Made by a program: the position numbers and the translations under genes. The notes beneath the pieces were generated by a model that searched no databases, was not told the origin of the DNA, and worked only from the letters and a program-made list of their open reading frames with translations. A stretch of 34,676 bases of DNA from a virus. The stretch's first letter is position 1; each line of letters begins with the position of its first letter. The stretch spans positions 1 through 34,676 of the IMG/VR virus record IMGVR_UViG_3300013138_000022. The stretch is one strand, 5' to 3'. Below are positions 1 through 31,693 of this stretch, piece by piece.

Positions 1-334
1 AATCGAGAACCTCCTGAGCTTCCGCCGAACGCTTCGCCCACCATCGCAGCGTGGCGAGCGGCGCGGCGGCGTTCACGCTGACGCGCGTCGTGACCGTGTG
101 GCCGTAGTCGCGCTCAATCGTTCCGCCCTCAAGTTCGACGTTTTGAATCAGCACGCGCAGGCCGGTTTCCGGGTCGCTGTTGCTGTCGGCTCCGTTCGGA
201 CCATATTTTTGTCGCGTGAGCTTCACGTAAGGAACGCCGCTGTCTTCGTTGGTCTGCCGGAACAGGATGAGGACCGAACGCGGGACCAGATCGTCGCGTG
301 AAATCAGCGAGACACTTTTCAAATTGCCATCCGA
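1..334. repeat. Terminal overlap, left copy
   Basis: This stretch matches 34343-34676 base for base with no gaps, apart from 8 substitutions at 84, 86, 89, 137, 140, 143, 149 and 216. It lies wholly inside the tail hub gene and keeps its frame. It is best read as the two ends of a circular or circularly permuted genome that overlap in the assembly and come from slightly different population variants, rather than a true duplication. Confidence 0.9.
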
Positions 335-1063: not shown

Positions 1064-2260
1064 TTAATTGTGCTTCGTTGTTTCAACGGCCTTGACGCGC
1101 ATAGTTAGTCTATCTAAAGCAACCTTGTTATTTTCCAGCGCTTTTAATAGCCGGTCCATGAAGTCCATTTTGACCATTTGATTGTTGCGCACAACTTCAA
1201 ACATCCTGTCCGCGGTCGCTTGATCTACAGGCTCCCCGGTGATGAGTCCGGCAACCTGCGCGTCCAGCCTTTCGCCAGAAAGTGCTTGATGCGCAATCCG
1301 CCTTGCTTTCCTATCCCTGATTCTTTGCAGTTCAACCGATTGTCGCTTCGCAGATTGACCAAACTCGCCCGCACGCGCAAAAGCCGCCTGTGCGCCCAAA
1401 AACTGTTCCTGATCCAAAAGAGAACGCGCGCGAACATCTTTCAACCGATCTATTGTCTTTTGAGCGGAAGCAATGGCCGCTTCTTTTTCCGCGGTGGTCG
1501 GTTCAAAGTATCGCAACCATGGAGCCAGCCAGTTCGCCCATTTCCTGAACTCTCCCGGTTGGTTTTCCGCAATCTTCGCTTTCTGCTCGGCGATCTGTCT
1601 TTCAGAGTCACTAATAACAGTTCGGGTGTCGGCCAGTTTCGCTTTGATGTCCGCTTCGGTTCGCCCACCGCCGAGTATTTTCGCCTCCTCCTCGGCTCTG
1701 GTCTTTTCATCCATCAGTCGCTGAAATTCTTCTTCGCGCGCACTGGTTTCCTTCTTCTCGATGAATTCCACCCTTTTTTCTTCATCAATGCCCAACCGCT
1801 CCAGCGCCGCAGCCAGGTTATTGATCAATTCAATCCGGCGTTCCATCGCCTCTTCGGCCTCGCTAATTGCTTCCTTGTTCGGTTTGTCTTCAAGGATGCT
1901 CTCCAGCATCACCTTGCGCTTTTCCTCCGCGATGTTCCCGATTTTTCCAGCGAAGGATTTCGCCCATTCATCCAGCCGCGCCGACTCTTCGCGGACTTTT
2001 TTCGTGAGCAAGATGATCCCGGCCAGCGCCGCAGTCCACGGGTTGAAGATGAGGCGCGTGAATTTACCGAGCACCGGGAATTCAAATGACAACGCTCGCA
2101 TCGCCTGTCGAAGTTGCATCTTCTGACCCGACAGCCAGCCGACTTGTTTCCCAGCGTCCGCAACCGTGGTGTTGAGTTTCGTCAACTCGCTCTGGATTTT
2201 CTCAACGCCATGCGTGTCAGCCAGCGTGCGTATGACTATCTCAAGGTCTTGGTCTGCCAT
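1064..2260 (-). CDS. Tape-measure-like tail protein (short)
   Basis: This 398-residue protein starts at ATG 2258-2260, which shares one base with the TAA of the preceding gene (TAATG). The N-terminus (DLEIVIRTLADTHGVEKIQ, residues 5-23) has the style of phage tape measures. A hydrophobic stretch follows at about 62-86. Long charged heptad-like helices rich in E, K, A and R fill about 90-230 and continue towards the C-terminus. It sits just before the tail hub gene, the usual place for a tape measure. It is short for the family, so either the tail is short or this is a truncated or alternative form. Alternative: another coiled-coil tail protein. Confidence 0.65.
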   Translation of the reverse strand: MADQDLEIVIRTLADTHGVEKIQSELTKLNTTVADAGKQVGWLSGQKMQLRQAMRALSFEFPVLGKFTRLIFNPWTAALAGIILLTKKVREESARLDEWAKSFAGKIGNIAEEKRKVMLESILEDKPNKEAISEAEEAMERRIELINNLAAALERLGIDEEKRVEFIEKKETSAREEEFQRLMDEKTRAEEEAKILGGGRTEADIKAKLADTRTVISDSERQIAEQKAKIAENQPGEFRKWANWLAPWLRYFEPTTAEKEAAIASAQKTIDRLKDVRARSLLDQEQFLGAQAAFARAGEFGQSAKRQSVELQRIRDRKARRIAHQALSGERLDAQVAGLITGEPVDQATADRMFEVVRNNQMVKMDFMDRLLKALENNKVALDRLTMRVKAVETTKHN

Positions 2261-2754
2261 TAGGTCAATCCTTTCCCGTCGCTCCACCACATCACCAGCT
2301 TTGGACTGCAAAGGAACAGCGAAGGTGACACGCGGTCGGCATCCCAGTGCGGAGCGAACACCGGATAATTCGCGGACCGATAGAACCGCGTGGTGAACTC
2401 GGAGCAGAACATTCGGTCCCGCGCGCCCTTCTTCACCGCGTGCGTGAAGACCAGCAGTCCGAGGTAATCGTACTTCTGGCCCAGCGCCTCGCTGTAAAAC
2501 CAGCGCAGCCCGGCTTCAAGGTCAACCGGCTGCAAGCTGGGTCGCAAAACAAAACCGAGTTGCCCGGTTCGCAACGGATATTTTCTCACGCCCAGCCGTT
2601 CACGGCTGCCCACGGATTCACCGCCGCCGATGTAAACTTCCACGTGCGAAATATCAGTCCACGTTTTCACCGCGATGACATGACCGAACAGACTGTTGGG
2701 CCGATACAGCAGACAGTCACCGGGTAGAAGTTCTGGAATCGTCGTCACGGTCAT
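2260..2754 (-). CDS. Permuted NlpC/P60 (YiiX-like) peptidase, possible lysin or tail peptidase
   Basis: The 164-residue product starts at ATG 2754, in a 4-base overlap with the gene before; a longer frame opens upstream but overlaps that gene heavily. PGDCLLYRP (11-19) and SHVEVYIGGGE (36-46) match the first part of the papain-like fold with His37. FCSEF (116-120) gives a candidate Cys117 nucleophile. The His-before-Cys order is the permuted arrangement of the YiiX-like NlpC/P60 branch. Such enzymes cut peptide or acyl bonds in the cell wall. It follows holin-like and lipoprotein genes, so it could be the endolysin. It also directly precedes the tape measure, where NlpC/P60 tail peptidases occur. 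Confidence 0.65.
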   Translation of the reverse strand: MTVTTIPELLPGDCLLYRPNSLFGHVIAVKTWTDISHVEVYIGGGESVGSRERLGVRKYPLRTGQLGFVLRPSLQPVDLEAGLRWFYSEALGQKYDYLGLLVFTHAVKKGARDRMFCSEFTTRFYRSANYPVFAPHWDADRVSPSLFLCSPKLVMWWSDGKGLT

Positions 2755-2996
2755 TTTAGCTGGTAAGGTCGCCAGGCCCAGAGCGGGCAGGCAAAGGCCG
2801 TGCACCTTCGGATTTCATCCCGCTCGAACCCGACGCACTCCGCGCAGAAAATCTTAATAGCTGCGCGAGGCGAGCATTTTTTAGCCCATGCGCGCGTCAG
2901 AAGCGCCCGGAATGAGTCGGGACACGTCCTGAGTCTGTCGGCCCGTGTTTTCTCGATTTTTTCACCGACCGGAGCGTTTTTTGGGTTTCCGTTCAT
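2751..2996 (-). CDS. Small Cys-rich conserved phage protein
   Basis: This 81-residue protein is 4-base coupled to both neighbours. Cys51 and Cys54 (CAECVGF) with Cys65 and Cys70 (RRCTAFACPLWAWRPY) form a likely zinc site. The CAEC...CPLW.xRPY pattern is familiar from small uncharacterised phage proteins. The N-terminal half is basic. No function can be assigned; its place in the lysis-like run may reflect co-expression only. Confidence 0.65.
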   Translation of the reverse strand: MNGNPKNAPVGEKIEKTRADRLRTCPDSFRALLTRAWAKKCSPRAAIKIFCAECVGFERDEIRRCTAFACPLWAWRPYQLK

Positions 2997-3241
2997 TTGG
3001 GTGCTGTTACCAGCCCGCGCGCAACACCTTCAGCAACCGCCGCAATCGCTTCGCTCTGCGCGCTAGATTGTTGAAGCTTAACGGTTAAGCTCAGGTTGCT
3101 CGATACGACCGAACCTTCAACCCCGGCGGATGACCAGAGCCAGCGCGTGTTGTGAACTCTGAGGTTCCCGTATTGGACTGTCGAGGTTGAACACCCTGCC
3201 AGCGCCAGCAGCGCGGCGGCCAGTGCGATTTTCGTTTTCAT
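2993..3241 (-). CDS. Small lipoprotein (spanin-like candidate)
   Basis: The 82-residue product begins with a lipoprotein signal, MKTKIALAAALLALAGCSTS, with lipobox LAGC and acylated Cys17. The mature part is about 65 residues, has no further membrane segment, and ends in an Ala-rich helix. It is 4-base coupled to the holin-like gene upstream. A lipoprotein next to holin-like genes in a Gram-negative phage suggests an outer-membrane spanin subunit, although no paired inner-membrane spanin is evident. It could also be one more exported protein of the kind seen elsewhere in this genome. Confidence 0.7.
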   Translation of the reverse strand: MKTKIALAAALLALAGCSTSTVQYGNLRVHNTRWLWSSAGVEGSVVSSNLSLTVKLQQSSAQSEAIAAVAEGVARGLVTAPK

Positions 3242-3528
3242 GGTTTGTTGATGATCTCTGTGTGTCCGTTCTGTTTTTGCTTCTGTTCCGATTCGATCCG
3301 GCTCAGCGTGCGATCGAAGAATCCGATCAAGTAGGTCGCCATCGCTCCACTGATGCAGAGCAGCGTGTTGATTCGCTCATCCCACGTCATCTCGCTCCAA
3401 GTATAGCTGCCCGCGCTCCATACGGCAAGCCCGGCCAGGTAGGTGCCGAGGCAAACCTTCAGCAGCGCGACCTTGTAGACGCTGAATCCCTCGGCGGTTT
3501 TGCGGCGTTGTTCAGGAGTGAAAATCAT
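3238..3528 (-). CDS. Holin-like two-helix membrane protein
   Basis: The 96-residue product starts at ATG 3528 (MIFTPEQRRKTAEG), in a 4-base overlap with the gene before. An upstream extension exists but would overlap that gene. Two hydrophobic segments lie at about 21-43 and 57-76, separated by a short polar loop containing WDERINTLL. A charged KQKQK tail follows the second. Size and topology fit class II holins, which form pores in the inner membrane at lysis. The assignment rests on topology and neighbours. Confidence 0.6.
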   Translation of the reverse strand: MIFTPEQRRKTAEGFSVYKVALLKVCLGTYLAGLAVWSAGSYTWSEMTWDERINTLLCISGAMATYLIGFFDRTLSRIESEQKQKQNGHTEIINKP

Positions 3529-3761
3529 TGATGATGGTTTTGAATTAGAATCATGGCGACCGCAACCAACAACTGAAGCAGGCCGAGCACAATCCCTAGC
3601 CCCCACATGCCGGTTGCGAGTTGTGTCCGCAGCCCCTCGATCTGCGCGGGAAGGCTGGGCCTTCCGTTGCCGTGAACCGTATGTTCTAGCGCGTCCATTC
3701 GCCGCTCCAAGTCGCCGTGTCTTTGATCGCAGACGGCTTTGCTGTAGTGATCTTCAGCCAT
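3525..3761 (-). CDS. Small membrane protein, N-terminal coiled coil and one C-terminal helix
   Basis: The 78-residue product has a charged helical N-terminus (ERRMDALEHTVHGNG, about 19-33) and one strong membrane segment at about 50-73 (WGLGIVLGLLQLLVAVAMIL), ending NHHQ. A good Shine-Dalgarno GGAG lies about 8 bases before the ATG, one of the few clear ones here. The layout resembles XhlA-like proteins and other small accessory lysis proteins found next to holins. It is coupled by 4 bases to the holin-like gene below. Confidence 0.6.
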   Translation of the reverse strand: MAEDHYSKAVCDQRHGDLERRMDALEHTVHGNGRPSLPAQIEGLRTQLATGMWGLGIVLGLLQLLVAVAMILIQNHHQ

Positions 3762-3777
3762 GTTTTTTCTCCGTTGT

Positions 3778-4482
3778 TCATTGCAAGTAAATCATCCCGA
3801 CCGAGAGCGTGAAACCCACCGTGAGGAGGAGCAACGAAAAAGCGGATAAAAAGAAGAATCTCGCCACTTTGTAAACTTCCACCAGGTAATCAGTGCGGTT
3901 GTCCAGTTCCGTTTGGCACTGAAGATGGGAGTTAATGAGCTTCTTCTTCAGGTCCTTTTCTGGGAGGGTCGCCTCTTTTTGGTCGATATGGACCGTCATG
4001 ATGACCCTCACGCCAAAAAACACGACCAGAAGCATTATTACGTTCAGGAAGGCCAATGCAGACAGGAAAAAAGGAAGCGCTACCCATGTCGAATTAGACA
4101 GGGATTTTGGGAGCAAAAACCCGGTTAGGGCCAGGAACACAGAGCTTAGCGTAAGGAGCGTTTTGCATTTGTCGGTTATGCCGCTCCGACGAGTTTCCGC
4201 GGCCGCGAGGCCGGCCCTTGCTTCGTATAGAAGGATATCGAGGTTTTCCTCCGTCGACAGGGTAAGCTCCTTGTATTCGCGGGCATCCTTGAACGTCTCG
4301 TTAAACACCTCATCCCAAGTGACCTCGGTTGCATAGAACCGAAACGACAAATAGGTGATCGTAGTAACAATCTTTTTGCGTAGGCCGTGAAACCCGTCGA
4401 GGCCTTTTTGCGCGTACTCCTTCGCGAGGTCTTTGACGGACTTTTTCATGGAAGGAAGCAAAAGCAGCGCGGCGATTTTCAT
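3778..4482 (-). CDS. Three-helix membrane protein of unknown function
   Basis: The 234-residue product is taken from ATG 4482, which overlaps the previous stop by 4 bases; ATG 4449 (MKKSVKDLAKEY) is an alternative. About 100 charged residues, including a helical stretch ENLDILLYEARAGLAAAE, precede membrane segments at about 108-125, 132-158 and 207-231. A polar region of about 48 residues separates the last two. The arrangement loosely recalls SLATT-type membrane proteins and exclusion proteins, but no motif proves it. It sits between exported proteins and the holin-like genes and may act in membrane disruption or superinfection exclusion. Confidence 0.6.
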   Translation of the reverse strand: MKIAALLLLPSMKKSVKDLAKEYAQKGLDGFHGLRKKIVTTITYLSFRFYATEVTWDEVFNETFKDAREYKELTLSTEENLDILLYEARAGLAAAETRRSGITDKCKTLLTLSSVFLALTGFLLPKSLSNSTWVALPFFLSALAFLNVIMLLVVFFGVRVIMTVHIDQKEATLPEKDLKKKLINSHLQCQTELDNRTDYLVEVYKVARFFFLSAFSLLLLTVGFTLSVGMIYLQ

Positions 4483-4718
4483 TTGAACGACAGGATGCCA
4501 ATGCCCCACGGCCCGGAGTAATCGTTGGTTGAATAAGCGGTCTGCGTGCCTGCGCTCGTTGCGAGCCGGTCGCCCACGTCGAAAAACGCATCCCCAGCGC
4601 GATTCGTATAAAGATCGCTTAGCACGTTGGCCCCGCGCCCATCAGGACACAGCCAGCACAGCAACGCCAGCGCGATGACGAGCCACACGGCAAAAAAGAG
4701 TTTCGTGTTGCGGGTCAT
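4479..4718 (-). CDS. Small exported or membrane-anchored protein
   Basis: The 79-residue product starts MTRNTKLF and has a strongly hydrophobic segment at about 8-24 (FFAVWLVIALALLCWLC), followed by a polar domain of about 55 residues (DGRGANVLSDLYTNRAGDAF). The segment could be a signal anchor or, with its cysteines, a non-canonical lipoprotein signal. It is 4-base coupled at both ends, between the long fibre-like gene and a membrane protein. Function unknown; it belongs to the exported set. Confidence 0.6.
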   Translation of the reverse strand: MTRNTKLFFAVWLVIALALLCWLCPDGRGANVLSDLYTNRAGDAFFDVGDRLATSAGTQTAYSTNDYSGPWGIGILSFK

Positions 4719-7575: not shown

Positions 7576-7982
7576 ACGTATTCAGTAGCCTTCCCGCCCG
7601 TGATGGTCACACGCGAGATCGTCGTCACTCCTATCGGTTCATCGGTTTCAATTTGCACCAGCGCGCCCGCAACTTTGTAGGTCGTCTCTACGCCGGAATA
7701 ATCCTTGTGCGTCAGGAGCACGTCGTAAATTCCTGCGTAGGTTTCGACGCAGGTTTCGTAGAAATCCACGGCGGCCTTGTTCGTCGAATGTTCCTTGACG
7801 ATGGTAAGCTGACGCACGGTTTCCCAGTTGCCGCGCGTGGTTCGGAATCGCGCGTCGCTGCCAAGCAGGGTTTCATTTTGAAACACCGGGCCGCCGGTCA
7901 CGGGCGCGCGTTGAACCGAGTCCGAGTAGTTCGCAAGCTCGTTCGGTCCGACTTGAATTTTCCATGTGCCGAAGAAAGCCAT
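7572..7982 (-). CDS. Conserved tail-region protein, unknown
   Basis: The 136-residue product starts MAFFGTWKIQVGP just after the tail tube gene (5-base gap) and is 4-base coupled to the fibre-like gene. It looks like a compact beta-rich fold, with RTTRGNWETVRQLTIVKEHS and VTTISRVTITGGKATEYV as strands. Gene order suggests a tail component or assembly factor. It lacks the slippery-site frameshift pair typical of tail chaperones. No membrane or signal segment. Confidence 0.6.
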   Translation of the reverse strand: MAFFGTWKIQVGPNELANYSDSVQRAPVTGGPVFQNETLLGSDARFRTTRGNWETVRQLTIVKEHSTNKAAVDFYETCVETYAGIYDVLLTHKDYSGVETTYKVAGALVQIETDEPIGVTTISRVTITGGKATEYV

Positions 7983-7986
7983 GGGA

Positions 7987-8964
7987 TTATGTTAACGTGT
8001 AGGCAATTTGAGCCGCCTCGGCACTATCAGCAAAGGTGCGGTGCGAGGTAATGTTCACCGCCCGCAACCGGTGTTCCCCGGCGCGATAGACCCGGCTGTC
8101 GCCGGAGAATCCAGCGCGGTACAGTGTGAACGTGAACGCAGGGTTGCGCTGCGTTGTGCTGATGACTAAGTTTTCCGGCGTGCCGCCTGTGCCGCGACTC
8201 AACAACTGGCCGGGGAGAATCGCCGTTGAATCTTGAACGGCAATCAGCGTGTCCGCCTGATCCTCGGTCAGGTTGGATGGAATGAACGACCCGGCGACGT
8301 TTAACCCGGTCAGGATGGTATCCACAACCCCGATGTCGCCGGCGACAATTTGCTGTGTCTGGAACGGGAACGAAAATTCAAATCCATCAATCGCGCCGAT
8401 GGCGTCGTAAGGCGAACCCCTCGACCCAATCGTCGCCTTGTAGTTGTCAATGATGATTTCAGTTTCCTCGAATGATGTGTCAATGCTGGACAACGTGCCC
8501 GCGTTGGTTTTGTAAGCCGCCGCAGCCGTCGGTTGTGTTGCGGCGTCAATCATCGCCGTCCATTCCATCGTTCCGAACGCGGTCCCGCTCGGTTTCAACA
8601 TGAGCGGCGGCGGCTGGCTCATGCCAGCGCGGTGGAACGTGTACGTCTTCATGTTGGCGATATCGTTCACCAACAGATCGTCATTCGCCCCCGGCACAAT
8701 GCTTTTTCCAACATAAGAACCCGGGGCGAGAAACGCCGCGTAAAAGTAGTTCATCAGCGTTGAATTGATCTGCCCGACGGGCACACACGAAATCCGGTAG
8801 TGTCGTGACCGGAAGCGCGGACCGAGCGGGCCAAGCGCGCTGTCAGGTGAAAACGTTTCAACGTTGTGTTCAACGGTCACGTCGCCCTGTGTCCACACAG
8901 CAACGCCGCCGTGCGTAATGTAAGCCGGACCTTGAATGATGGTTGGGAGAACTACGTTTGCCAT
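7987..8964 (-). CDS. Probable major tail tube protein
   Basis: The 325-residue soluble protein starts MANVVLPTIIQGPAYITHGG. It has alternating polar and hydrophobic strands, a near-N-terminal VTVEHNVETFSPDSALG loop, and a C-terminal FTFTLYRAGFSGDSRVYRAG segment. It follows the connector, gp10-like and terminator genes, the standard position of the tail tube subunit. No sheath gene follows, in line with a non-contractile tail. The assignment is by position and fold style rather than a diagnostic motif. Confidence 0.6.
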   Translation of the reverse strand: MANVVLPTIIQGPAYITHGGVAVWTQGDVTVEHNVETFSPDSALGPLGPRFRSRHYRISCVPVGQINSTLMNYFYAAFLAPGSYVGKSIVPGANDDLLVNDIANMKTYTFHRAGMSQPPPLMLKPSGTAFGTMEWTAMIDAATQPTAAAAYKTNAGTLSSIDTSFEETEIIIDNYKATIGSRGSPYDAIGAIDGFEFSFPFQTQQIVAGDIGVVDTILTGLNVAGSFIPSNLTEDQADTLIAVQDSTAILPGQLLSRGTGGTPENLVISTTQRNPAFTFTLYRAGFSGDSRVYRAGEHRLRAVNITSHRTFADSAEAAQIAYTLT

Positions 8965-8971
8965 AACTTTT

Positions 8972-9694
8972 TCAGATGGTTAGTTGGTTAATGGATGAAA
9001 TGCTCAAATCGGTTTTGACCGCTGCGGCTCGCGCGGTCTCGCCGCTGTTCGGTGTGAACGCGCCGCTGTAAATGATCGCCTTGGGGTTGGACGGAGCCGG
9101 GAACGTCCCGTCGGTCGTGTAATAAATGTCCGCGCCGCTGGTGGACGTGGCCAGCGTGATGGTGCCCTCGGTATTCGTGATGCTCGGCGTTGCGCAACGC
9201 GAGGTCTGCCCACGGTTGCATGTCATGCGAAGCCGGACGCGGTAGGCCGTCAGCGGCTCGAATCGCGGGTCGGAAACAATCGCCGTCCTGTCACCGCGAA
9301 AAATTCCCTGTCCTTGAATGCTCCACAGGTGCAGCACGTCCAGAATTTTCTGCGCAACCTGATCCGCGGCTCTGAGCGTTCCGAACTGCGCGTCCTCGTT
9401 TTGCAGCCGGTCTTCAATCACCGTGCAGGTGAGGATTAAATCAGCCTGCGGTCCCGGAACGTTTTCGTGTAGAAGTGAAAATTCGGGTTTCTCGACAATG
9501 ACACCGCAACCGCTGCGACCGTTGCGGGACGTGGTGTAAACGAGCGTCTCAGCCGCGTACGTCTGATCAGCCATGCGCGTCTGTTCGAGCAGCAGCGTGT
9601 CGCGCGTGACGACGTTGACCGACTCAAACCAGTTGTCACACAGCAGCGCGTGCGCAACATCGTTCTGCAACTGGATGAAGTTGGTAAAGCTCAT
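8972..9694 (-). CDS. Tail terminator-like protein with chitobiase-type C-terminal domain
   Basis: The 240-residue product has an N-terminal domain (1 to about 165: DVAHALLCDNWFESVNVVTR, then QVAQKILDVLHLW and YRVRLRMTC) that fits tail terminator or completion proteins by order and size. Residues about 168-240 form a separate small domain (SITNTEGTITLATSTSGADI, then YYTTDGTFPAPSNPKAIIYS) matching the CHB_HEX_C_1/FN3-like pattern, IYYTTDG.P.....Y, found at the ends of chitobiases and many surface proteins. It overlaps the gp10-like gene by 4 bases. The extra domain may bind glycans or decorate the neck. Confidence 0.65.
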   Translation of the reverse strand: MSFTNFIQLQNDVAHALLCDNWFESVNVVTRDTLLLEQTRMADQTYAAETLVYTTSRNGRSGCGVIVEKPEFSLLHENVPGPQADLILTCTVIEDRLQNEDAQFGTLRAADQVAQKILDVLHLWSIQGQGIFRGDRTAIVSDPRFEPLTAYRVRLRMTCNRGQTSRCATPSITNTEGTITLATSTSGADIYYTTDGTFPAPSNPKAIIYSGAFTPNSGETARAAAVKTDLSISSINQLTI

Positions 9695-10236
9695 CTGGGT
9701 TCCAACGTCCTGTGAATCGCGGATTCAATTCGCCTGGTGTATTTCGGAAGGCACGCCGCAATGCCGCGTCGAACGGGCGCGCGTTCGGGAATGATTGCAC
9801 CCGGATGTTTCACCTTTTTTGCAAAAACCGTCCGGCCTCCGACCATGAATTTCAAAACTTTTTTTTCTCTTGGCCGAATTTCTCGCGGCGGTGTCATTCC
9901 TCCAAACTCATGGACCAGCGCGTAGTTCACCCCGCCCTTGGCCCGCACGTTGTTCCCGATGACGGAAGAAACTTCCTCGTTGTTTACAACAGCCGGTGTT
10001 GCGAACAGAGCGCGCCGCAAGCTATTGCTGATGACGCGCAATCCTTCCGTCGTAGTGGGCCGGTCTTTCGGGAACGACAGGAACTCGCGCTGGATGAAGC
10101 TGATCGTGTCCGCGTTTTGCAAATCCATCTCTTCAGCGATTGCGTTCAGACAACGCGCGCGCGCCTGACCGTCCCAGACGCTTTCCATAAGCTTCCGGCT
10201 TTTGTCGCTCAACGAAATGGAGATGTCGGGTATCAC
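9691..10236 (-). CDS. HK97 gp10-like/virion morphogenesis protein
   Basis: The 181-residue product carries the landmarks of gp10-like head-tail joining proteins: YALVHEFGG (about 105-113), the basic RPREKKVLKFMVGGRTVFAKK segment split over about 121-141, and the PERAPVRRGI turn near 149. Helices fill the N-terminal half. It is coupled by 4 bases to both the connector gene before it and the terminator gene after it, the order expected for neck proteins. Confidence 0.75.
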   Translation of the reverse strand: MIPDISISLSDKSRKLMESVWDGQARARCLNAIAEEMDLQNADTISFIQREFLSFPKDRPTTTEGLRVISNSLRRALFATPAVVNNEEVSSVIGNNVRAKGGVNYALVHEFGGMTPPREIRPREKKVLKFMVGGRTVFAKKVKHPGAIIPERAPVRRGIAACLPKYTRRIESAIHRTLEPR

Positions 10237-10850
10237 GAGATTTGAAAGCGCACGTAAGGTGCGAGCAGACGTTTCACCGTCGGAGCAAGATCAAGCTTCG
10301 CGATGCTGATCTTGGTTTGTTCCTGCGAGACGATGCCCACTCCCAGCCGGTCCTTCTGGTTCCACGTTTCTGCGCACTGCAACAGCCACGCGAGTTTTAT
10401 GCCACCTGGCAATTCGGTCGCGCTATCCGTGTTTGAACCGCTGTCGTCTTCGCTGGTGTCGAACCAGTAACCGCCCGTATAAGTGACGCGAACCAAGGTT
10501 GAGCGCGTGCCATAGACTCCGCCGAACCAGATGCGCCCGCTGCTTTCCTCGATTTGAATCGGCTGGCCGCTATCCGTCACCCAGCCGGTCGTCTCGTCAT
10601 CCTTGGTTTCAACGGATGAAACCGAAGCCACGGGCGCGCGTGGCAGATAAAAATGATCGCGCGCCGCGTCGAAAGTTATCGTGTCATCCGCGGTGTATTG
10701 CAGCTTGCGATTGCAGTAGCCCTCGATCTGCCCGGCCACGCCCAGGCCGATCGCGGTCAACTGCGTGTCATAGCGCGTTTCGAGAACCAGCGCAGACGCC
10801 AGCACGTGACGCTTCAGCGTCGTAAGACTTCCAAGTCCGACGTTTGCCAT
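10233..10850 (-). CDS. Head-tail connector (gp6-like adaptor)
   Basis: The 205-residue product starts MANVGLGSLTTLKRHV. It has an N-terminal helical part ending in IEGYCNRKLQY (about 42-52), then the strand-turn motif FYLPRAPVASVSSVE (about 67-81) and VRVTYTGGYWFD (about 120-131), as in gp6-like adaptor proteins that dock on the portal. Its ATG lies inside the end of the small gene upstream (37-base overlap). Confidence 0.8.
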   Translation of the reverse strand: MANVGLGSLTTLKRHVLASALVLETRYDTQLTAIGLGVAGQIEGYCNRKLQYTADDTITFDAARDHFYLPRAPVASVSSVETKDDETTGWVTDSGQPIQIEESSGRIWFGGVYGTRSTLVRVTYTGGYWFDTSEDDSGSNTDSATELPGGIKLAWLLQCAETWNQKDRLGVGIVSQEQTKISIAKLDLAPTVKRLLAPYVRFQIS

Positions 10851-10993
10851 AAGTCAAAATTGTAAAATGAAACGCCCAGCCTAATTTTCACCTGCTCAGC
10901 CGCGAGCATCCGGTTGCGCGGCGGCCAGATGATGGCCACGGGTTTTAGTTCCCTGAACCTGACCCCGCGCAGCTTTCGGTTTTTGTTGTTCAT
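10814..10993 (-). CDS. Small basic protein, unknown
   Basis: The 59-residue product from ATG 10993 (MNNKNRKLRGVRFRELKP) is basic at its N-terminus with WPPRNRMLAAEQVKIRLG in the middle. It sits right after a strong hairpin and overlaps the connector gene by 37 bases. The frame extends a little upstream, but the hairpin loop makes the later ATG more likely. Many HK97-like phages have a small unassigned gene here. Confidence 0.5.
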   Translation of the reverse strand: MNNKNRKLRGVRFRELKPVAIIWPPRNRMLAAEQVKIRLGVSFYNFDLWQTSDLEVLRR

Positions 10994-11003
10994 TTGTGAC
11001 AGT

Positions 11004-11039
11004 GGGCGGGGCGAGACACACCCAAAACTCACCCCGCCC
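11004..11039 (-). other. Strong intergenic hairpin after secreted-protein gene
   Basis: In the minus-strand transcript GGGCGGGGTGAG and CTCGCCCCGCCC can form a 12-pair stem with one G-U pair around a 12-base loop. It starts 7 bases after the TAG of the secreted protein at 11047-11517. No U-run follows, so it is not a standard terminator; it may protect the 3' end or attenuate transcription. Confidence 0.7.
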
Positions 11040-11046
11040 GTTCAGC

Positions 11047-11517
11047 CTAACCGTTTCGTTTCGGTTTCGTCGCCACCTTGACCGTGATGTTCGTTATCGC
11101 TTCGCCGTCAACGTGCACGGCATTGATGCTGTGCAGCATGAAGTAACCCGCATTACCCACGGTCACGTTGGTTGTGCACTGAACGTAATCCGTGACCGTC
11201 GGCGATGAGACCGGGATGGTCATCGCGAACTGTTCCGTTGCCGCCATCGTCGTCGCGTTCGGTCCCCAGGCGAAGTTGAACGTGACGTTGCTCGCCGCCC
11301 CAGTCGTCACGTCATTGGCTCGGAACCGGACCGTAACAGCGAGGTCCTCGTATTTCGCGCAGTTGAACTTGAACTCACCCGCCGAGTAGTTGCTGACTCC
11401 ACCCGCCGCAACCACGTTCGTAGCGTAACCGCCCATGATGGTCGTGACCGCGTACTGGTCCGCTGCACTTGCAGCCAGGGCCGTCAGCAGCGGAATGATG
11501 CAGAGAAGTTTTTTCAT
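11047..11517 (-). CDS. Secreted beta-rich protein behind the capsid gene (paralogue 1)
   Basis: The 156-residue product has signal peptide MKKLLCIIPLLTALAASAAD, with likely cleavage after ASA at about 19. An ideal AAGGAG lies 9 bases before the ATG, the best ribosome binding site seen in the window, implying high expression. The mature part is all-beta in style (LAVTVRFRANDVTTG, NVTFNFAWGP, NVTVGNAGYFMLHSI) and ends VKVATKPKRNG. It is clearly related to the neighbouring gene, which ends YTLKPKRYGN. The location, between capsid and connector genes, is where head decoration proteins occur, yet the signal peptide implies export. Confidence 0.75.
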   Translation of the reverse strand: MKKLLCIIPLLTALAASAADQYAVTTIMGGYATNVVAAGGVSNYSAGEFKFNCAKYEDLAVTVRFRANDVTTGAASNVTFNFAWGPNATTMAATEQFAMTIPVSSPTVTDYVQCTTNVTVGNAGYFMLHSINAVHVDGEAITNITVKVATKPKRNG

Positions 11518-11531
11518 GGTTCACATCTCCT

Positions 11532-11978
11532 TCAGTTGCCGTACCGTTTCGGCTTCAGCGTGTAGCTGATGTTGTTCGTTGAGTACTGTCCCGCCTGTCC
11601 GTTCGCCACGCTGACCAGACGCAAATATCCGGCGGAAGACGCCGTGTAATTCGTGGTCAACTGGACGTAAGTCCCGGCCGTGCCGCCGGGGGCGAGCGTG
11701 AACACGAAGGAATTCACGGTGTCCCAGTTCGACCCGTCCGGTGACTTCTGCCAGGTGTAGGTCTGTGCTCCCGTGCCGGTGTTGTCCAGCGTCGTCCGAA
11801 CCGTGATCGCCACATTTTCCCATTTGGTCAGGACGATCTTTGGAGCGGAGGTTGACATCGTAACGGTCGCAGACCCGGCCACCTTCAACCCGTTGGTCAG
11901 TGTCGTGGTTGCGTACTGCTGCGCTTGAGCCGCGAAGCCCAGGACCAGCGACGCAATGATTGCAAGAATCATTTTCAT
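11532..11978 (-). CDS. Secreted beta-rich protein behind the capsid gene (paralogue 2)
   Basis: The 148-residue product is taken from ATG 11978, preceded by AAAGG at a proper distance; the frame extends 17 codons upstream into a hairpin and is probably not used. Signal peptide MKMILAIIASLVLGFAAQAQ has a likely AQA cleavage site. The mature domain (ENVAITVRTTLDNTG, YTWQKSPDGSNWD, GYLRLVSVANGQAGQY) has an Ig/jelly-roll-like pattern and shares its layout and KPKR C-terminus with paralogue 1. WQKSPDGSNW-type strands occur in phage proteins measuring or decorating surfaces, but I cannot name the family. Confidence 0.75.
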   Translation of the reverse strand: MKMILAIIASLVLGFAAQAQQYATTTLTNGLKVAGSATVTMSTSAPKIVLTKWENVAITVRTTLDNTGTGAQTYTWQKSPDGSNWDTVNSFVFTLAPGGTAGTYVQLTTNYTASSAGYLRLVSVANGQAGQYSTNNISYTLKPKRYGN

Positions 11979-12038: not shown

Positions 12039-13250
12039 TTACGCAGCCGCCAGCGTGAGTTTCGCGAACCCGGTCGCCAGCTTGATGACGAAGCCACCGC
12101 GCACAATCACCCGGAACGCCGAACGATTGTAGTCGAATTGGAATTCGTCACTGCGGGCGAACTCGAAGTCCTTGCGCAACCCGACCGCGCCGGCCTGCGG
12201 ATCGCCGAAGCAGGCAACCACATTGCCCGCGCTGTCGGTGCTGGGCATCGCCGCCGTCAGCACCACCGGATATCCCAGGATGGACCCAATCGCGCCCGGA
12301 GCCGGAGCTTCAAGCGCGTTCTGGAAGATGGGCCGCCCGTTGTCATCCCGCACAAGACAAATCTTGGCGAGAATCTGCGGATGAATCCACCACTTGGCCG
12401 GACGCTGCAACGTGCCAGCCGCGACCGTGGTCAGACAGCGAACGAAGTCCGCAAGCTCAAGAGCCGAGACGGTCGTGTTGCCATCCGCCGCCGTTGCCGC
12501 CGTGCCGCCAGAGGCAATGCCCGTAAATGCGCCGTCGGTCGTGTCATCAGTTCCATCCGCCGCGAAACACGCCCAGTCCATGCGATACGCAACCGACTGG
12601 CCGAGTTGTTCCATCACGAAGCCAGCCAGGTCCGCCTCGCTGTCCTCGATGTTCGCCCGCGCCACAGGAATCCAAGCCGCCGCTTCCTTGATGGTCAGCG
12701 TCACGCTAGTCCCAGTGAAAGCGCCTTCTGTGATTTGCGCGCCCTGCGCAACCCAGTACGCCGTGGGGCGAACCGAAATGAGCGGAACGATCTGCGTCCG
12801 GCTGCCAATCGGCATCACGCCGAGCGTGTTCCACTGACCATACTGAAGGAGCAGGTCGTAGATAGCCGCCGCCGTCTCTTGCGGAATGACCGCCCCACCG
12901 ATACCGCTGTCCACGCCCGTCACCGCCGTCCTCTGTTGCAGGTACGCGTTGCGTGCGCACGTGGCGATGTAACCGGCATTGAGCGGGTCACTGGTGAATC
13001 GCTTGATCGGATCGCCAAAAGCCGCAATCGCCTCGCGCCGGACCATCCGCTCGACGGTCGCCAGTTTCGTGGCGAACGTGTTCGCATTGTCCTGCACCTT
13101 GCCGAGGTCGGCCAGGGCTTTCTTGGTGTCCGCATCAATGCGGGTTACGTCAGACAGAATCTTCTGCTGACCCGTCTTGAACTCGTCCTGCGACGCGGCA
13201 ATCTTGCCCACGCTTTCCAGGACGGAATCCTCAAATTTCTTTTCGCTCAT
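12039..13250 (-). CDS. Major capsid protein, HK97 family
   Basis: The 403-residue product has an N-terminal charged coiled coil (about 1-75, a delta/scaffold-like region) normally removed by the prohead protease. The HK97-fold body has typical landmarks: GGAVIPQETAAAIYDLLLQY (about 118-137), RTQIVPLISV, ARANIEDSEADLAGFV, a long spine-helix region, and the C-terminal GYPVVLTAAMP and FVIKLATGFAKLTL. It is 4-base coupled to the protease gene, as usual. No separate scaffold gene is present, consistent with the fused delta region. Confidence 0.92.
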   Translation of the reverse strand: MSEKKFEDSVLESVGKIAASQDEFKTGQQKILSDVTRIDADTKKALADLGKVQDNANTFATKLATVERMVRREAIAAFGDPIKRFTSDPLNAGYIATCARNAYLQQRTAVTGVDSGIGGAVIPQETAAAIYDLLLQYGQWNTLGVMPIGSRTQIVPLISVRPTAYWVAQGAQITEGAFTGTSVTLTIKEAAAWIPVARANIEDSEADLAGFVMEQLGQSVAYRMDWACFAADGTDDTTDGAFTGIASGGTAATAADGNTTVSALELADFVRCLTTVAAGTLQRPAKWWIHPQILAKICLVRDDNGRPIFQNALEAPAPGAIGSILGYPVVLTAAMPSTDSAGNVVACFGDPQAGAVGLRKDFEFARSDEFQFDYNRSAFRVIVRGGFVIKLATGFAKLTLAAA

Positions 13251-13951
13251 AAGTTCATTGCGATCAGTTTTATTTTCAACGCGAAATCGAGTTGCATCCG
13301 GCGACGGGCTTCTTCGTCAGCGCCGGAACTAACAGACGAAGAAGCGTGTTGTTCTCTCCCGGTCGAAAGTGTCTTGGAGCTTAACCGCTCCGAAATCAGT
13401 TGCAGGTCGGCGTCATCGAGCACGCCGCCCTTGTACGCGCGCGCGAAGCTGGCCAGCGCGTTCGGGTTCGCCCCGATGATGCACGCGGACAATTCAATCT
13501 GCTGTTGCCCGGTGTAAATGACTCGCGGTGGATTGTCCTTCAAGCCCAGCCGTTCAACTTCGCCAGCGTAGGCTTTGTCTTCAGGTTGCAATGTCTCCGT
13601 CGGGATGAAGCCCACAGAGACAGCCTTGAGATGTCCGCTCGTGGTCATCTTCCAGCCGAGTTGGGCGAGCCGGTTTTCCTTCACATCAATCGCCCATTGC
13701 ACCGTTTCCATCAGCGCGCCCTCGCGCACTTCTGCGGCGCGAACCGAGCCGAGCAGATTTTCGATGCTGTCGTAGTTGTGCGAGTTGACGAAGGGAGCGT
13801 TCTTTTGGAATCGGTCAAACCGCCAGCCGGACGCGAGAACGACTTCGCGATAGCTGTCCAGCGTCTCATCGCTCGCGCGATACTCAACCAGCCCTTCCTT
13901 TTCACCGACGATTTTCACGGTGAACGGCATTTCTCTACGGATTACGTTCAT
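13247..13951 (-). CDS. Prohead protease, HK97 U35/S78-type
   Basis: The 234-residue product has the catalytic pattern of the family: FVNSHNYDSIENLLG with His58, and LKAVSVGF with Ser112. ELSACIIGANPNAL follows towards the end of the protease fold. The last about 45 residues (SSSVSSGADEEARRRMQ) are a polar tail. It trims the capsid protein and portal during head maturation. It is coupled by 4 bases to portal-MuF above and capsid below. Confidence 0.9.
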   Translation of the reverse strand: MNVIRREMPFTVKIVGEKEGLVEYRASDETLDSYREVVLASGWRFDRFQKNAPFVNSHNYDSIENLLGSVRAAEVREGALMETVQWAIDVKENRLAQLGWKMTTSGHLKAVSVGFIPTETLQPEDKAYAGEVERLGLKDNPPRVIYTGQQQIELSACIIGANPNALASFARAYKGGVLDDADLQLISERLSSKTLSTGREQHASSSVSSGADEEARRRMQLDFALKIKLIAMNL

Positions 13952-16284
13952 GTTTCTTCCTCCGGTTCATCCACGACCGCCAGCTGGATGCACTGACAGT
14001 TGATGACGTTGCCCGCGCTCCCATTCGGATCGCCGGGATACATCAGTTCCTCGAAGTCACCTTCACTGTTCATCACAAGAAACGGTTCATTCACGTGGAT
14101 CGGGTTTGACATCGTGTAGGTCAACTCGGCCTGCCGATGGCCGGGCCGGACGTTCGGTCCGTGCGACGACAGCCACGCTTTCCTCTGCACGCCCGCGTCT
14201 TTCATGGCCTGCTGCCGGGCGAAGCCGAACGCCGCGTTCGTTTCGGTCATCGCAATCCGCCGCGCCTCGTACTTCTGAAGGTCGTTGAACCTGGCCTTGA
14301 GATTTTCCGTGATTGCATCCACGTTCAAGCCTTCGCTCACGCCCGCGTCCAACACCGTGCGCAACTGGTCGTAAACCGTCTGACTCGAATTTCGCAACAG
14401 CGGATTCCGTTTTGCGATGAACTCGTTGACAGTCTTGGGCGTCATGCTCCAAGGATCAGTAAAGCCGATTTCCTGCATGAGCGCCGCGCCCGCGTTTTGC
14501 GTGACGGTCTTCGCGACCGGCTCCAAGGATGTCACCAGCTTCATCGCAAACTCGGAAGCATCGAAAATCAAATCCGTGATGCCCTTCGCGTGCGCGTATG
14601 GCCAGTGCGTCTGCAACGCTTGCAGCGCCTTGCCGCGAAATTCATTCAACACCTTGCTGACTTTTTTCTCGTAAAGCCGGACCGACTTTTGACGGTTGCG
14701 CACGTGTTGCTCCCAGAGTCGCTTGTTGACCATGGATTCAACCGCGCGCTTGACCATTCGATTGCCGTCGCCGTCACCGTTGCCGTTGTTGCCGTCGTCA
14801 GCTTCGTCATCATCCGGTTCTTCTGTGTCCTCCGGTCCTTCCGTGTCCTCAGGCTTCGCGACCGGGTTTGGTTCTTCGGCGTAATCATCCGCGGTGAACG
14901 CCGATGAATCCATGCCGACCTGTTCCGCCGGCGTGACGCTGAACGGAAGGAACCCGTCCTCCCAGCCCGGATACTCCGGCAGGTCAAGGCCGAGATAGTC
15001 GCTCACTTCACGCATCGGCATTCCCTTTGCCCAAAGCGCGTCCGCGCTGGTGAGCCGTTCGCGGCGGACCTCCTGCATCGTCGGATGGTCATCCCAGTCA
15101 AACGCAACTTCAACGCCGAACCCCAGCAGCTTGCCCAGCAGCAGCCCCAGACCGTCGGCGATCTTCTCGCTCGTCGGGATGCAGGTGTCTTGAATGAGTT
15201 GGTAGTAATCGCTGGCTGAACCGATGCTGTAACTCGCCTTCACGTCAAACATGCTGGGCGGCACTCCAAACGCGACGGCGATTTCGTGGCGGTTCTCCAA
15301 CCGTGACGCGATGTAGTTCGCATCCGGCGCGCGCACCTTGGGGTCCTGGACTTCAATATCCGCCGGCAGGAACATCGGCCTGAAGATGCCGCGTTGTTGC
15401 ATCTCGCGCTTCTGCCGCAACTGGTCAACGATCTGCTTTTGCTGCTCGTCGCTCAGCATGATGTCACCGCTGTAAGAAACGAACACTCCCTGATCACCGT
15501 TGTTCTGCATCAGGTTACGGTTGTAGGTTCCCGCAGCGTAATCAGCCTCGCTCGCAACGGTCGCCGCGTCATATTCGCTCAGCCCGCGATATTCACTGTA
15601 CGGATTCCAGTAACGCAACTGAATGACCTGCTCTGGAATCAATCGCTCGATGCCGCCGTTCTGTTTCGTGAACTGCCAGCCCACCAGGCCATCGCGACCG
15701 ACTACCTCGCGCATCCGGTCAGGACGGGCCACGACGATTGGTTTCAGTCCACCGCGCCGTTCCGGGAAGGGCATGATTGCATCGTCACCGAGGAGCCAGA
15801 AATTTTCCCCAGCGAGTTTCAACCAGCCAACACACGCTTCGATGAAGTCAGCCCAGGAAATTCCCACGGCGGGCGATGCAAGCCAGGTTGCCAGAGCTGG
15901 ATTTTCAATTTCGGCCAGTTCTTCACCGGCCTGACGCATAACACGTCGCAGTGTGCTGGGTCTCCGGAGTTGACGTAACGCCGCCTGCCGTGAAAGTTTT
16001 TCCGCGCCGCGCCAGCCTTTGCGCAACAACGTTGCCCGCGTTTCAGCCAGTTGGTCTGCGCGATAAATTGAAACCGGAACTGCGGAGCAGGGTCCGGCGA
16101 TCTTCTTGATTGCGCGCATCACCCAGACCGAATTGCGGTAGGGTTGCGTGAACGAAACGCCGGAATGAAAATCAATCGCCCGGTCAAACCACTGGGCGGG
16201 GATGCCGCCGACTCCCTTGAGGACAGCCCATGCCGATCCCGCCAGCGCGCGTCGCGCGAAACCGGGAAGAAAGTTTTTCAGCAT
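13948..16284 (-). CDS. Portal protein fused to MuF-like minor head protein
   Basis: The 778-residue product is taken from ATG 16284 (MLKNFLPGFARR). The frame also opens from TTG 16326, but that TTG is part of a TTGACA box and is likely not a start. Residues 1 to about 455 are an HK97-type portal (AIKKIAGPCSAVPVSIYR, YWNPYSEYRGLSEYDA, HEIAVAFGVPPSMF). An acidic linker (about 468-510) leads to a MuF domain (about 515-770) with ARRIAMTETNAAFGFARQQ and the C-terminal NVINCQC. MuF proteins normally come from a separate downstream gene; here one chain supplies both at the portal vertex. Confidence 0.9.
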   Translation of the reverse strand: MLKNFLPGFARRALAGSAWAVLKGVGGIPAQWFDRAIDFHSGVSFTQPYRNSVWVMRAIKKIAGPCSAVPVSIYRADQLAETRATLLRKGWRGAEKLSRQAALRQLRRPSTLRRVMRQAGEELAEIENPALATWLASPAVGISWADFIEACVGWLKLAGENFWLLGDDAIMPFPERRGGLKPIVVARPDRMREVVGRDGLVGWQFTKQNGGIERLIPEQVIQLRYWNPYSEYRGLSEYDAATVASEADYAAGTYNRNLMQNNGDQGVFVSYSGDIMLSDEQQKQIVDQLRQKREMQQRGIFRPMFLPADIEVQDPKVRAPDANYIASRLENRHEIAVAFGVPPSMFDVKASYSIGSASDYYQLIQDTCIPTSEKIADGLGLLLGKLLGFGVEVAFDWDDHPTMQEVRRERLTSADALWAKGMPMREVSDYLGLDLPEYPGWEDGFLPFSVTPAEQVGMDSSAFTADDYAEEPNPVAKPEDTEGPEDTEEPDDDEADDGNNGNGDGDGNRMVKRAVESMVNKRLWEQHVRNRQKSVRLYEKKVSKVLNEFRGKALQALQTHWPYAHAKGITDLIFDASEFAMKLVTSLEPVAKTVTQNAGAALMQEIGFTDPWSMTPKTVNEFIAKRNPLLRNSSQTVYDQLRTVLDAGVSEGLNVDAITENLKARFNDLQKYEARRIAMTETNAAFGFARQQAMKDAGVQRKAWLSSHGPNVRPGHRQAELTYTMSNPIHVNEPFLVMNSEGDFEELMYPGDPNGSAGNVINCQCIQLAVVDEPEEET

Positions 16285-16298
16285 AGTGTCTGAAAGTC

Positions 16299-16326
16299 CC
16301 AATAGCACAAAGCCGGAACTTGTCAA
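16299..16326 (-). promoter_or_regulatory. Possible sigma70-like promoter before head genes
   Basis: A perfect -35 box TTGACA (16321-16326) is followed after 16 bases by TATTGG (16299-16304). It lies in the 90-base gap between the methyltransferase stop and the portal ATG, one of the larger gaps in the structural block. The -10 matches only moderately. It would give the head genes a promoter of their own. Confidence 0.4.
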
Positions 16327-16380: not shown

Positions 16381-17037
16381 CAACGCGCCATCCAGTTCGC
16401 GGGCGATTCGGTCGCAGGCGAGTTTGTAGTAGCGGGTATCAATTTCAATCCCGATAAAGTTGCGGCCCGTTCGCAGGCAGGCGATCCCGATCGTACCGCT
16501 GCCCATGTACGGGTCGAGCACGGTCGCGCCGATTGGCACTCTGCATTTTTCCATTGCCCACGCCATCAATACCACAGGCTTCTGCATCGGATGCACGCGC
16601 TGTTCATCGTATTCGGAGTCTTTTAGCATTCCAATCCATAGATGCCGCTTCAGACGGGCGGGCGAGCGCAGATTTGTCCACGCGAGTTCGCAGTCCGCTT
16701 GGTCGTTGCTGCATACGCCGTCGCGCTTGTCCCATACCAGCCACGCGGGAGAGTCAGGCAGGCGGCTCGCGTAGTGGTTCGCGCCCCACAGCACCACGAC
16801 CGGATAGCCGAGCCACGGGCGCGGATCGAACGGTTTGTCATCGCCGATGATTGCCTCGCCGTCAGTGCCGAGTTTAACGCCGCCCTTGCGCGCTCCGTGG
16901 CAGTAGGAGATTCCATACGGCGGGTCAGCTATCACGGCGTCGGCTTCGATTCTATCCATCGTTTCAGAGTCGCCATTTATCAGGAGCGCCCATGAATTGC
17001 GCCCGGCGAATTTCTGTTGCTCGATTGGAGTGCTCAT
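16375..17037 (-). CDS. DNA methyltransferase, beta class (N6-adenine or N4-cytosine)
   Basis: The 220-residue product has catalytic motif IV DPPYGI (38-43) before the cofactor-binding motif I DPYMGSGTIGIACLRTG (175-191), the beta-class order. Motif HPMQKP (149-154) and EID at 198-200 (acidic residue for the cofactor ribose) complete the core. DPPY leans towards adenine-N6. Recognition residues probably lie in about 45-145. It is 4-base coupled to the large terminase and sits inside the packaging block, an odd place, suggesting that packaged DNA is modified or protected from host restriction. Confidence 0.85.
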   Translation of the reverse strand: MSTPIEQQKFAGRNSWALLINGDSETMDRIEADAVIADPPYGISYCHGARKGGVKLGTDGEAIIGDDKPFDPRPWLGYPVVVLWGANHYASRLPDSPAWLVWDKRDGVCSNDQADCELAWTNLRSPARLKRHLWIGMLKDSEYDEQRVHPMQKPVVLMAWAMEKCRVPIGATVLDPYMGSGTIGIACLRTGRNFIGIEIDTRYYKLACDRIARELDGALL

Positions 17038-18239
17038 ATCAGAACCGCGACGATGTTTGAACTGGCGAGCGAGTCCAGCGCAGCTGATACGCAGTCAACG
17101 CGGTCGTCATGTTTGCCGTCCGGGAACGCGCACAACTCATCCATGAACCCCGGCACATTCCAATTCCCTCGCACAACGGCCAGCTTGCCTTGCTCCGCTC
17201 GAGCGGCCAGCGGCAACGCGCGCGTGATCTTGTCCTTCGTGACGGTCTGGCCGTTCATCGCAATGTTGGACAGCATCGGTTCTCGCTGAAGTTGCTGAAG
17301 AAATCCGACCTGCGCGCCGACAACTTCAATTCGCTGTGAAACGCTTTGCCCGTCGGTTCGGGCGGTTGAAGACACGACGCGCACGGCTTCGGGCCACTCC
17401 CAGCGCCCGTGAACGATGTGCGAGACGACGATGGTTCCGTCTGACATCAAGCCAACCTTTGCGCCCGCGGTGAAGTCGCTGGTTGTCTTTTGTGTGAACG
17501 CGAGGTCCCAGCAGCGCACCCAGCGCGAGCACTGCGGTTCTCCATCCAGCACGCGCACCCATTCGCGGCGGAACATAGCCCCGGCGAGTTGCACAAACTC
17601 AGCGCCGATTTCCTGACGGCGGACCAGCGACGGCATGTCGGCGGCGATGGATTCAAGTTCAGTCGCTCTCAGGTGCGGGTTGTCTGATGACGCGAATTGA
17701 AACGTCGCCCACTCGTTGCTGTGCGAACCTTTCTGCCAGAGTTCGTTGAAGTAGTTGAACCCGCGAGGTGTCGAGATGAACCACGCGCTCCCGCGACGAT
17801 CCAGCAGCGTCGGGCGCAGACACAGTTCCCAGATTTCTTGAAGCTTCGGAATGTGAGCGGCTTCGTCAACGACCGCGAAGTTAAGCGCCTCACCGCGCAG
17901 CGCGTCGGGTTCCTCAGCGGTCTTGAACTGCAACCAGCCGCCGGACGGGAACAGCAACGCGCGCCGTTGCAGGTTGACTGCAGCGTTCGGGAAGTGTGTC
18001 CGGTAAAATTCAACCATCCTCCACCCGGCCTGATAGGCGGCGGACGCAAACGATGGAGCGATCCACCAGCAGGCTTTGCCAGCGTCGGCGGCGAGTCGGA
18101 TGCACTCACCGATGCCAAGCACGCCCTTGCCCCAGCGGCGACCTGCGGCGATGACCTTAAATCTTGCCGGACTGGTCTGGACTTTGCGCTGTGTCGGGTG
18201 CAGCGGCGGGAGAAGTATCAACGGTGATTGCTGGTTCAT
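17034..18239 (-). CDS. terL: Terminase large subunit
   Basis: The 401-residue product has an ATPase with Walker A GRRWGKG (33-39), Walker B FAVVDEAAH (121-129) and coupling motif FISTPRG (154-160). A nuclease domain follows with WDLAFT (Asp245) and HDDRVD (377-382). It cuts and drives DNA into the prohead through the portal. Its start overlaps the small-terminase fusion gene by 83 bases. Genome ends that overlap in different variants suit a headful (pac) packager, but that is not proved. Confidence 0.92.
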   Translation of the reverse strand: MNQQSPLILLPPLHPTQRKVQTSPARFKVIAAGRRWGKGVLGIGECIRLAADAGKACWWIAPSFASAAYQAGWRMVEFYRTHFPNAAVNLQRRALLFPSGGWLQFKTAEEPDALRGEALNFAVVDEAAHIPKLQEIWELCLRPTLLDRRGSAWFISTPRGFNYFNELWQKGSHSNEWATFQFASSDNPHLRATELESIAADMPSLVRRQEIGAEFVQLAGAMFRREWVRVLDGEPQCSRWVRCWDLAFTQKTTSDFTAGAKVGLMSDGTIVVSHIVHGRWEWPEAVRVVSSTARTDGQSVSQRIEVVGAQVGFLQQLQREPMLSNIAMNGQTVTKDKITRALPLAARAEQGKLAVVRGNWNVPGFMDELCAFPDGKHDDRVDCVSAALDSLASSNIVAVLI

Positions 18240-31377: not shown

Positions 31378-31693
31378 GTAAGTGGTTGTTCCACAAGACT
31401 TTACCCTCTGTTGTATAGGGGAATTTCGCGTTGAGTCGGACCTGACCTTCGGCGCAACCGCAGTCGCAGCGCATTATGATCCGCCACCAGCGTTTGAAGG
31501 CTTCGCCGCCCACGGGGCCGATGACGCGCGCAGCGGTGTCGCCGAGACCGCGCTCGCCGTCCAGCCGGTGCAGCCGGAGTTTCTTCGCCCAGCCCGGCCA
31601 GTCTTCAGGCCTCATCGCAACAGTTGCCCGCCTCATGGTTCGCGAGTGGGCGATCGCCCGGGCGGCAGCGGCCATGACCGCAAGAGAAATCAC
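31358..31693 (-). CDS. Small conserved late protein
   Basis: The 111-residue product starts MISLAVMAAAARAIAHSRTM, a mildly hydrophobic N-terminus. GLGDTAARVIGPVGGEAFKR (about 50-69) and CDCGCAEGQVRLNAKFPY (about 75-92) match a small family of phage proteins (GLGD...CGC..R...LN..FPY) found near tail genes. It is 4-base coupled to the Cys-rich tail protein and is the last gene before the early promoter. Confidence 0.65.
   Translation of the reverse strand: MISLAVMAAAARAIAHSRTMRRATVAMRPEDWPGWAKKLRLHRLDGERGLGDTAARVIGPVGGEAFKRWWRIIMRCDCGCAEGQVRLNAKFPYTTEGKVLWNNHLQKTEKS

Follow-up and report, generated by a model that had tools for sequence, protein, structure and literature searches.

On the textbook view, tailed phages assemble in the cytoplasm and use export mainly for lysis, exclusion or moron proteins. 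Decoration proteins such as lambda gpD, phage L Dec and T4 Hoc/Soc, which are small and beta-rich and are encoded beside the capsid gene, are cytoplasmic products without signal peptides. The virus contig analysed here by computation (34.7 kb, referred to as the window) encodes, directly behind the gene for an HK97-type major capsid protein, two small beta proteins that both carry a Sec signal, and the locus thereby raises the question why a phage would export products of its head block, and where these would act. Export of the two proteins is well supported by what the genes encode, and it is their role that we infer: with slightly less than even confidence, we tentatively favour the reading that they are virion surface proteins which leave the cytoplasm via Sec and become attached to the particle only afterwards, at lysis or later.

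The two ends of the window (1-334 and 34343-34676) repeat each other over 334 bp at 97.6% identity, in two slightly different copies, which makes it probable that the map is near-complete and either circular or terminally redundant. On the minus strand, the late region runs in the order terminase, portal-MuF fusion, protease, capsid, the two exported-protein genes, a 59-aa ORF and a head-tail adaptor (Table 1). The 59-aa ORF, for which a family search gave no match, is tentatively the equivalent of a small head-neighbour protein found in relatives. The lipoprotein is possibly an outer-membrane spanin, a function suggested by its position. Lysis-type genes (the lipoprotein and small hydrophobic proteins, 2260-4718) separate the fibre-like genes from the likely tape-measure gene (1064-2311), which is an unusual order, and a 549-aa protein with cysteine clusters (CRCPNCS...CQCC; 31690-33339), without a Pfam match, lies near the tail genes once the map is closed into a circle.

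Table 1. Features of the 34.7-kb virus contig (the window); a slash marks the predicted cleavage site.
Feature	Position	Strand	Basis or remark
Terminase	17034-18239	-	
Portal protein fused to MuF-like domain, single 792-aa ORF	13948-16326	-	
Probable prohead protease / head-module protease part	13247-13951	-	Aligns to N-terminal part of phrog_617 and phrog_4523 (major head and protease protein)
HK97-type major capsid protein, without hydrophobic leader	12039-13250	-	PF05065 E 3.9e-38, phrog_10 E 2.1e-45
Exported beta protein 1, 148 aa	11532-11978	-	ORF, signal, family profile E 7e-51, AlphaFold2 pLDDT 87.8
Signal peptide of protein 1	11922-11978	-	MKMILAIIASLVLGFAAQA/QQYA
Predicted mature domain of protein 1	11535-11921	-	
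Exported beta protein 2, 156 aa, paralog	11047-11517	-	ORF, paralogy, family profile E 4e-50, Shine-Dalgarno dG -8.8
Signal peptide of protein 2	11464-11517	-	MKKLLCIIPLLTALAASA/ADQY
59-aa ORF where the relatives' small head-neighbour domain (fused to the exported domain) would sit	10814-10993	-	Position and weak alignment
Head-tail adaptor	10233-10850	-	phrog_442 E 2.7e-14
Fibre-like protein, 321 aa	6610-7575	-	Sec signal MKKLLSIALAIVPWLAGA/ATPF; six GYTP-type shaft repeats
Fibre-like protein, 632 aa	4715-6613	-	Sec signal MKIFIATLFLLVLTLPAFG/AAHV
Small lipoprotein, lysis-type neighbourhood	2993-3241	-	Sequence (lipobox LAGC)

The two genes of interest are spaced by 14 nt and start 60 nt past the capsid stop, i.e. 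in the decoration position that a preliminary description of this DNA had assigned to them, and where export is, as it had remarked, unusual. Protein 1 is counted from an ATG; a longer, TTG-started frame extends to 12029. The proposed paralogy of the pair is borne out by a local alignment score of 167, versus 35.5 +/- 6.2 in shuffled sequences (0 of 2000 shuffles scored as high), and without the signals the score is 142 versus 35.2 +/- 6.4. The similar C-termini are likewise as described (KPKRYGN in protein 1, KPKRNG in protein 2), and KPxR is retained by most members of the family to which both belong. One of the two genes had also been credited with the best Shine-Dalgarno in the genome: that of protein 2 (GAAGGAG, dG -8.8) is indeed strong, but ranks third of the 36 starts tested, after those of a 94-aa gene (-11.2) and the protease gene (-9.5); protein 1 has a weak one (dG -3.2).

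Both signals combine a basic start, an uncharged hydrophobic core and a small-x-small site, and are thus of the Sec/signal-peptidase-I type; neither a twin-arginine motif nor a lipobox was found in them. Both were flagged by a rule-based predictor written for the purpose, which looks for these three parts and was partly supplemented by eye. In calibration on 92 E. coli genes the rule recovered all eight labelled signals with one false positive; on lambda it flags only lom, rexB and Rz, leaving gpD unflagged, and on HK97 only Rz. Most standalone members of the exported-domain family are flagged as well; L009 (loci are given by their L numbers) is missed, so that the family tally is partly a judgement by eye. 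The suspicion that the signals are an artefact, i.e. that a wrong start or a chance hydrophobic start disguises ordinary cytoplasmic decoration proteins, can draw on the home-made nature of the rule and on members that were judged by eye, such as L009 with its G-W-G before the cut, but we consider it very improbable, given that the rule separated the E. coli and phage controls and that the same features recur at the same junction in 17 divergent members.

These members were recovered by way of the capsid protein, searches with which yielded some 40 loci with convincing homologs among viral contigs. Five standalone members served to build a profile of the mature domain, which matched L005, L009, L011, L014/15, L016, L019, L022, L023, L024, L025, L026/27, L028-31 and L032, and a further member (L093, in a Verrucomicrobia MAG) was found later. 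Collapsing near-identical loci leaves 17 proteins, with mutual identities of ~14-46% apart from the L019/L024 pair (70%). The export signal is conserved throughout: when the sequences are read, a hydrophobic segment that ends in A-x-A or a similar small-residue site is found immediately before the domain in 17 of 17 members, and the residue that follows the predicted cleavage site is Q in 13. In the window and most relatives the gene lies directly 3' of the capsid gene, and L011 has two tandem copies, as the window has. The relatives L017, L020, L033, L034 and L038 lack a member, which makes the protein accessory; since most relatives are fragments, such absences are weak evidence. The exported domain has no match in annotated phages, Pfam or PHROGs, and a PDB sequence search with it gave no meaningful match; a hit of the full protein to phrog_3807 (E 0.001) was set aside, as it spans the signal peptide and is lost with the mature domain alone.

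In eight members (L015, L016, L022, L023, L025, L026, L028 and L093) the signal segment is internal, behind a small soluble domain, and a similar small domain is encoded as a separate gene near the capsid gene in L010 and L011. That the signal occupies the same junction in standalone and fused forms is hard to explain unless crossing of the membrane matters. Internal translation starts, from which the fused relatives might make a secreted version on its own, find no support, the frames being truly fused and neither a start nor a Shine-Dalgarno being consistent among them; nor do disulfides account for the export, as cysteine numbers vary from 0 to 4 across the family. The hydrophobic segments, internal in these eight relatives, could also be read as uncut signal anchors, which would hold the beta domain outside the inner membrane while, in the fused relatives, the cytosolic head-neighbour domain docks capsids, and the capsid ORFs of several relatives, which also start with one or two hydrophobic segments, would fit such an arrangement. 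The capsid protein of the window, however, has no hydrophobic leader, and the small-x-small site stands directly before the folded domain in all architectures, so that its retention even where the signal is internal makes an uncleaved anchor less likely for the window pair. Taken as a whole we regard anchoring as improbable, although the segment may stay uncleaved in the fused relatives.

The hydrophobic capsid leaders open the capsid ORF with a basic stretch and one or two transmembrane-like segments (L007, L014, L022, L027, L033, L040, L042, L048, L092 and L093), and a glycine-rich linker often connects them to the usual start; those of L014 and L027 are alike at the protein level. Such leaders could give rise to membrane-tethered procapsids. 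Other arrangements were also seen around these genes. A different protein of ~498 aa with a Sec signal (MKNLLLSLALLVAVSVSA/QPG) lies directly behind the capsid gene in L021 (5875-7371) and L024 (10382-11875), and in L024 the window-type family member is located elsewhere, at 3190-3765. In the connector region of distant phages there is a family of ~155-aa proteins with Sec signals and an SPDGxxW-like motif (L063 11593-12060, L064 8595-9053, L077, L084 10151-10621), which was treated as separate from the window family, as hhalign gave a probability of only 16% over 45 columns. In L091, from a Verrucomicrobiota MAG, the capsid gene and its neighbours (7814-11161) lie beside genes that, by eye, read like dnaN, rnpA, yidD and yidC; going by these names, the cluster may be a phage remnant or a domesticated cluster near the replication origin region.

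The description of the pair as beta-rich agrees with structure prediction: AlphaFold2 (monomer, 15-member alignment) models the mature domain of 129 aa as an all-beta sandwich of nine strands (pLDDT 87.8, pTM 0.82). According to Foldseek and VIA-align, XepA (6i56_B) is the best solved-fold match with Z 9.4, in a range where many unrelated sandwiches reach 8-9; IBDV VP2 (9.1), the lambda tail tip (8.5) and YomS (8.2) follow, Eph ligand-binding domains and CBMs are among the other matches, and many phage proteins of unknown function in BFVD resemble the domain. C2-like sandwich domains and a pentameric assembly characterise XepA and YomS. Scores of Z 9.4 and below are generic, and the predicted fold does not settle the function. 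We count it in favour of a place on the virion insofar as many phage surface proteins are beta sandwiches.

The same comparison supplies the strongest counter-argument, by analogy, namely that XepA (PBSX), a cytotoxic protein exported in the course of phage development, is reportedly missing from the mature particles (PMC6834076). The window pair might, in the same manner, be periplasmic or cell-surface proteins made late that never enter the virion, and that, for instance, coat the host or its debris against re-adsorption, exclude other phages or help to disrupt the envelope. Export alone requires no later encounter with a capsid, and lom of lambda is a known case of an exported protein whose gene sits among those for the tail (PMC12309495). 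We deem this plausible, if on balance doubtful. XepA and YomS (SPbeta, 6i5o) are described as products of lytic-cassette genes, which is a different context from the head module of the window; a recognisable Sec signal is, as judged here, present only in the window family; and phmmer and profile searches of the PDB sequences gave no XepA or YomS match at E up to 10. With no sequence link and another gene context, the window proteins are not demonstrable relatives of XepA. Lambda Lom and similar morons resemble the pair in being Sec-exported and encoded inside the virion gene block, but Lom is described as an outer-membrane beta-barrel, whereas the window family has a beta-sandwich fold, is encoded beside the capsid gene, is retained across a lineage and, in relatives, is fused to a head-neighbour domain. 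The conserved position in the head block, the fusion to a head-neighbour domain and the export signals on fibre-type proteins, which are expected on the virion, also speak against a role away from the particle.

Compared with gpD, Dec and Hoc/Soc, the pair shares the adjacency to the capsid gene and the small, mostly-beta fold; it differs in its conserved Sec signal and has no sequence family match. The export signal thus sets the window proteins apart from standard decoration proteins, and they may work like either a decoration protein or XepA.

What argues most strongly for a destination on the virion is found elsewhere in the window. Both fibre-like genes carry Sec signals as well (flagged by the rule), a point absent from the preliminary description, and the exported pair thereby fits into a broader pattern. 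The 632-aa window protein, L024 and L033 were taken as seeds for a profile of the N-terminal domain; three iterations gave nine proteins, among them the products of both window genes, and each of the nine has a Sec-type signal (six rule-flagged, three by eye). The N-terminal domains of the 632-aa protein, the L024 protein (a spike with a pectate-lyase-like domain) and the L033 fibre match one another with z 24-29, as against at most z 5.3 for their C-terminal parts. Tail fibres and spikes are built in this way, with a shared N-terminal domain and an exchangeable C-terminal part, and it is on this architecture and on position that the putative identity of the proteins rests; searches of Pfam and PHROG gave no fibre family profile match for either window protein, and a structure model of the N-terminal domain was too poor (pLDDT 45) to be used. 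Since fibres that bind receptors are to be expected on the particle, they make the strongest argument for a virion destination. Among the genes of at least 200 aa in distant HK97-type phages, taken as controls, 4 of 141 bear a signal and all four look like fibre genes (L068 8860, L069 13224, L071 13844 and 15415; L071 shows collagen repeats, L069 weak ones), so that signal-bearing fibres may occur in more than one phage group.

The reading we favour, i.e. that the two proteins are exported and then become part of the virion surface, can be put as a sequence of steps. Paralogy, signal, conserved cleavage site, fold, position and fibre signals are what the sequences support; export, cleavage, folding outside the cytoplasm and subsequent virion binding are steps that we infer. 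The two proteins would be made together with the head genes and moved over the inner membrane by Sec; signal peptidase I would trim them after the small-x-small site, before QQY and ADQY, respectively; and the beta sandwiches would fold outside the cytoplasm. The mature proteins would be accessory parts of the virion surface, either as capsid decoration or as head/neck appendages, and it is at lysis, once the envelope is breached, that the DNA-filled particle would gain them along with the likewise exported fibres. The difficulty of this scheme is that capsids in the cytoplasm would have no access to their exported partners until lysis has taken place. In vitro, attachment to particles is possible for P22 tailspikes and for T4 fibres.

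The hosts of this group can be narrowed down by its capsid relatives. A scan of bacterial genomes with the first capsid alignment gave no match, and a broader capsid alignment pointed to Verrucomicrobiota: all four strong relatives in bacterial genomes belong to this phylum (a prophage of Luteolibacter marinus NBU1238, which is an isolate, and three MAGs, one of which is from the Akkermansiaceae), with a fifth, weak match in Alistipes. Among 388 Verrucomicrobiota genomes, one more capsid relative was found besides that of Luteolibacter, and the group is thus rare in sequenced hosts. The L. marinus prophage, on contig NZ_JACZFQ010000123.1, may be a remnant; it encodes a capsid protein with the hydrophobic leader and has a signal-bearing 470-aa gene at the position of the window fibres, but the two-paralog family is absent from it. 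The trait is not common to all phages of the phylum, as follows from the cultured siphovirus P8625, a Verrucomicrobia phage from another lineage in which its authors' SignalP run predicted a signal peptide in no protein (PMC4642752): its annotated tail fibre has no signal, our rule flags one 82-aa protein only, with a score well below the usual cut-off, and none of its proteins matched the profiles for capsid, exported domain or fibre.

In the literature searched (limited in scope, preprints excluded) we found no report of Sec signals on tailed-phage virion proteins, and the combination that the sequences suggest here, namely accessory proteins of the head neighbourhood whose Sec export is conserved, together with fibre-type proteins of the same lineage that carry Sec signals too, appears unreported within that scope. 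A more general proposal would be that one lineage of tailed phages infecting Verrucomicrobiota makes part of the virion outside the cytoplasm, with Sec-exported and processed capsid-neighbour proteins and fibres attaching at or after lysis and, in some relatives, a capsid protein tethered to the inner membrane; we offer it as a speculation that is rather unlikely to hold in full. If true, the inner membrane would separate the assembly of the surface from the filling of the head. A culturable host exists in L. marinus, by virtue of its related prophage with the signal-bearing gene at the fibre position. In practice, annotation pipelines could mistake such phage genes for secreted proteins of the host. 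For the lineage itself, the conservation of Sec signals in one host-linked group would mean either that the virion surface is assembled outside the cytoplasm or that exported copies act on the host envelope.
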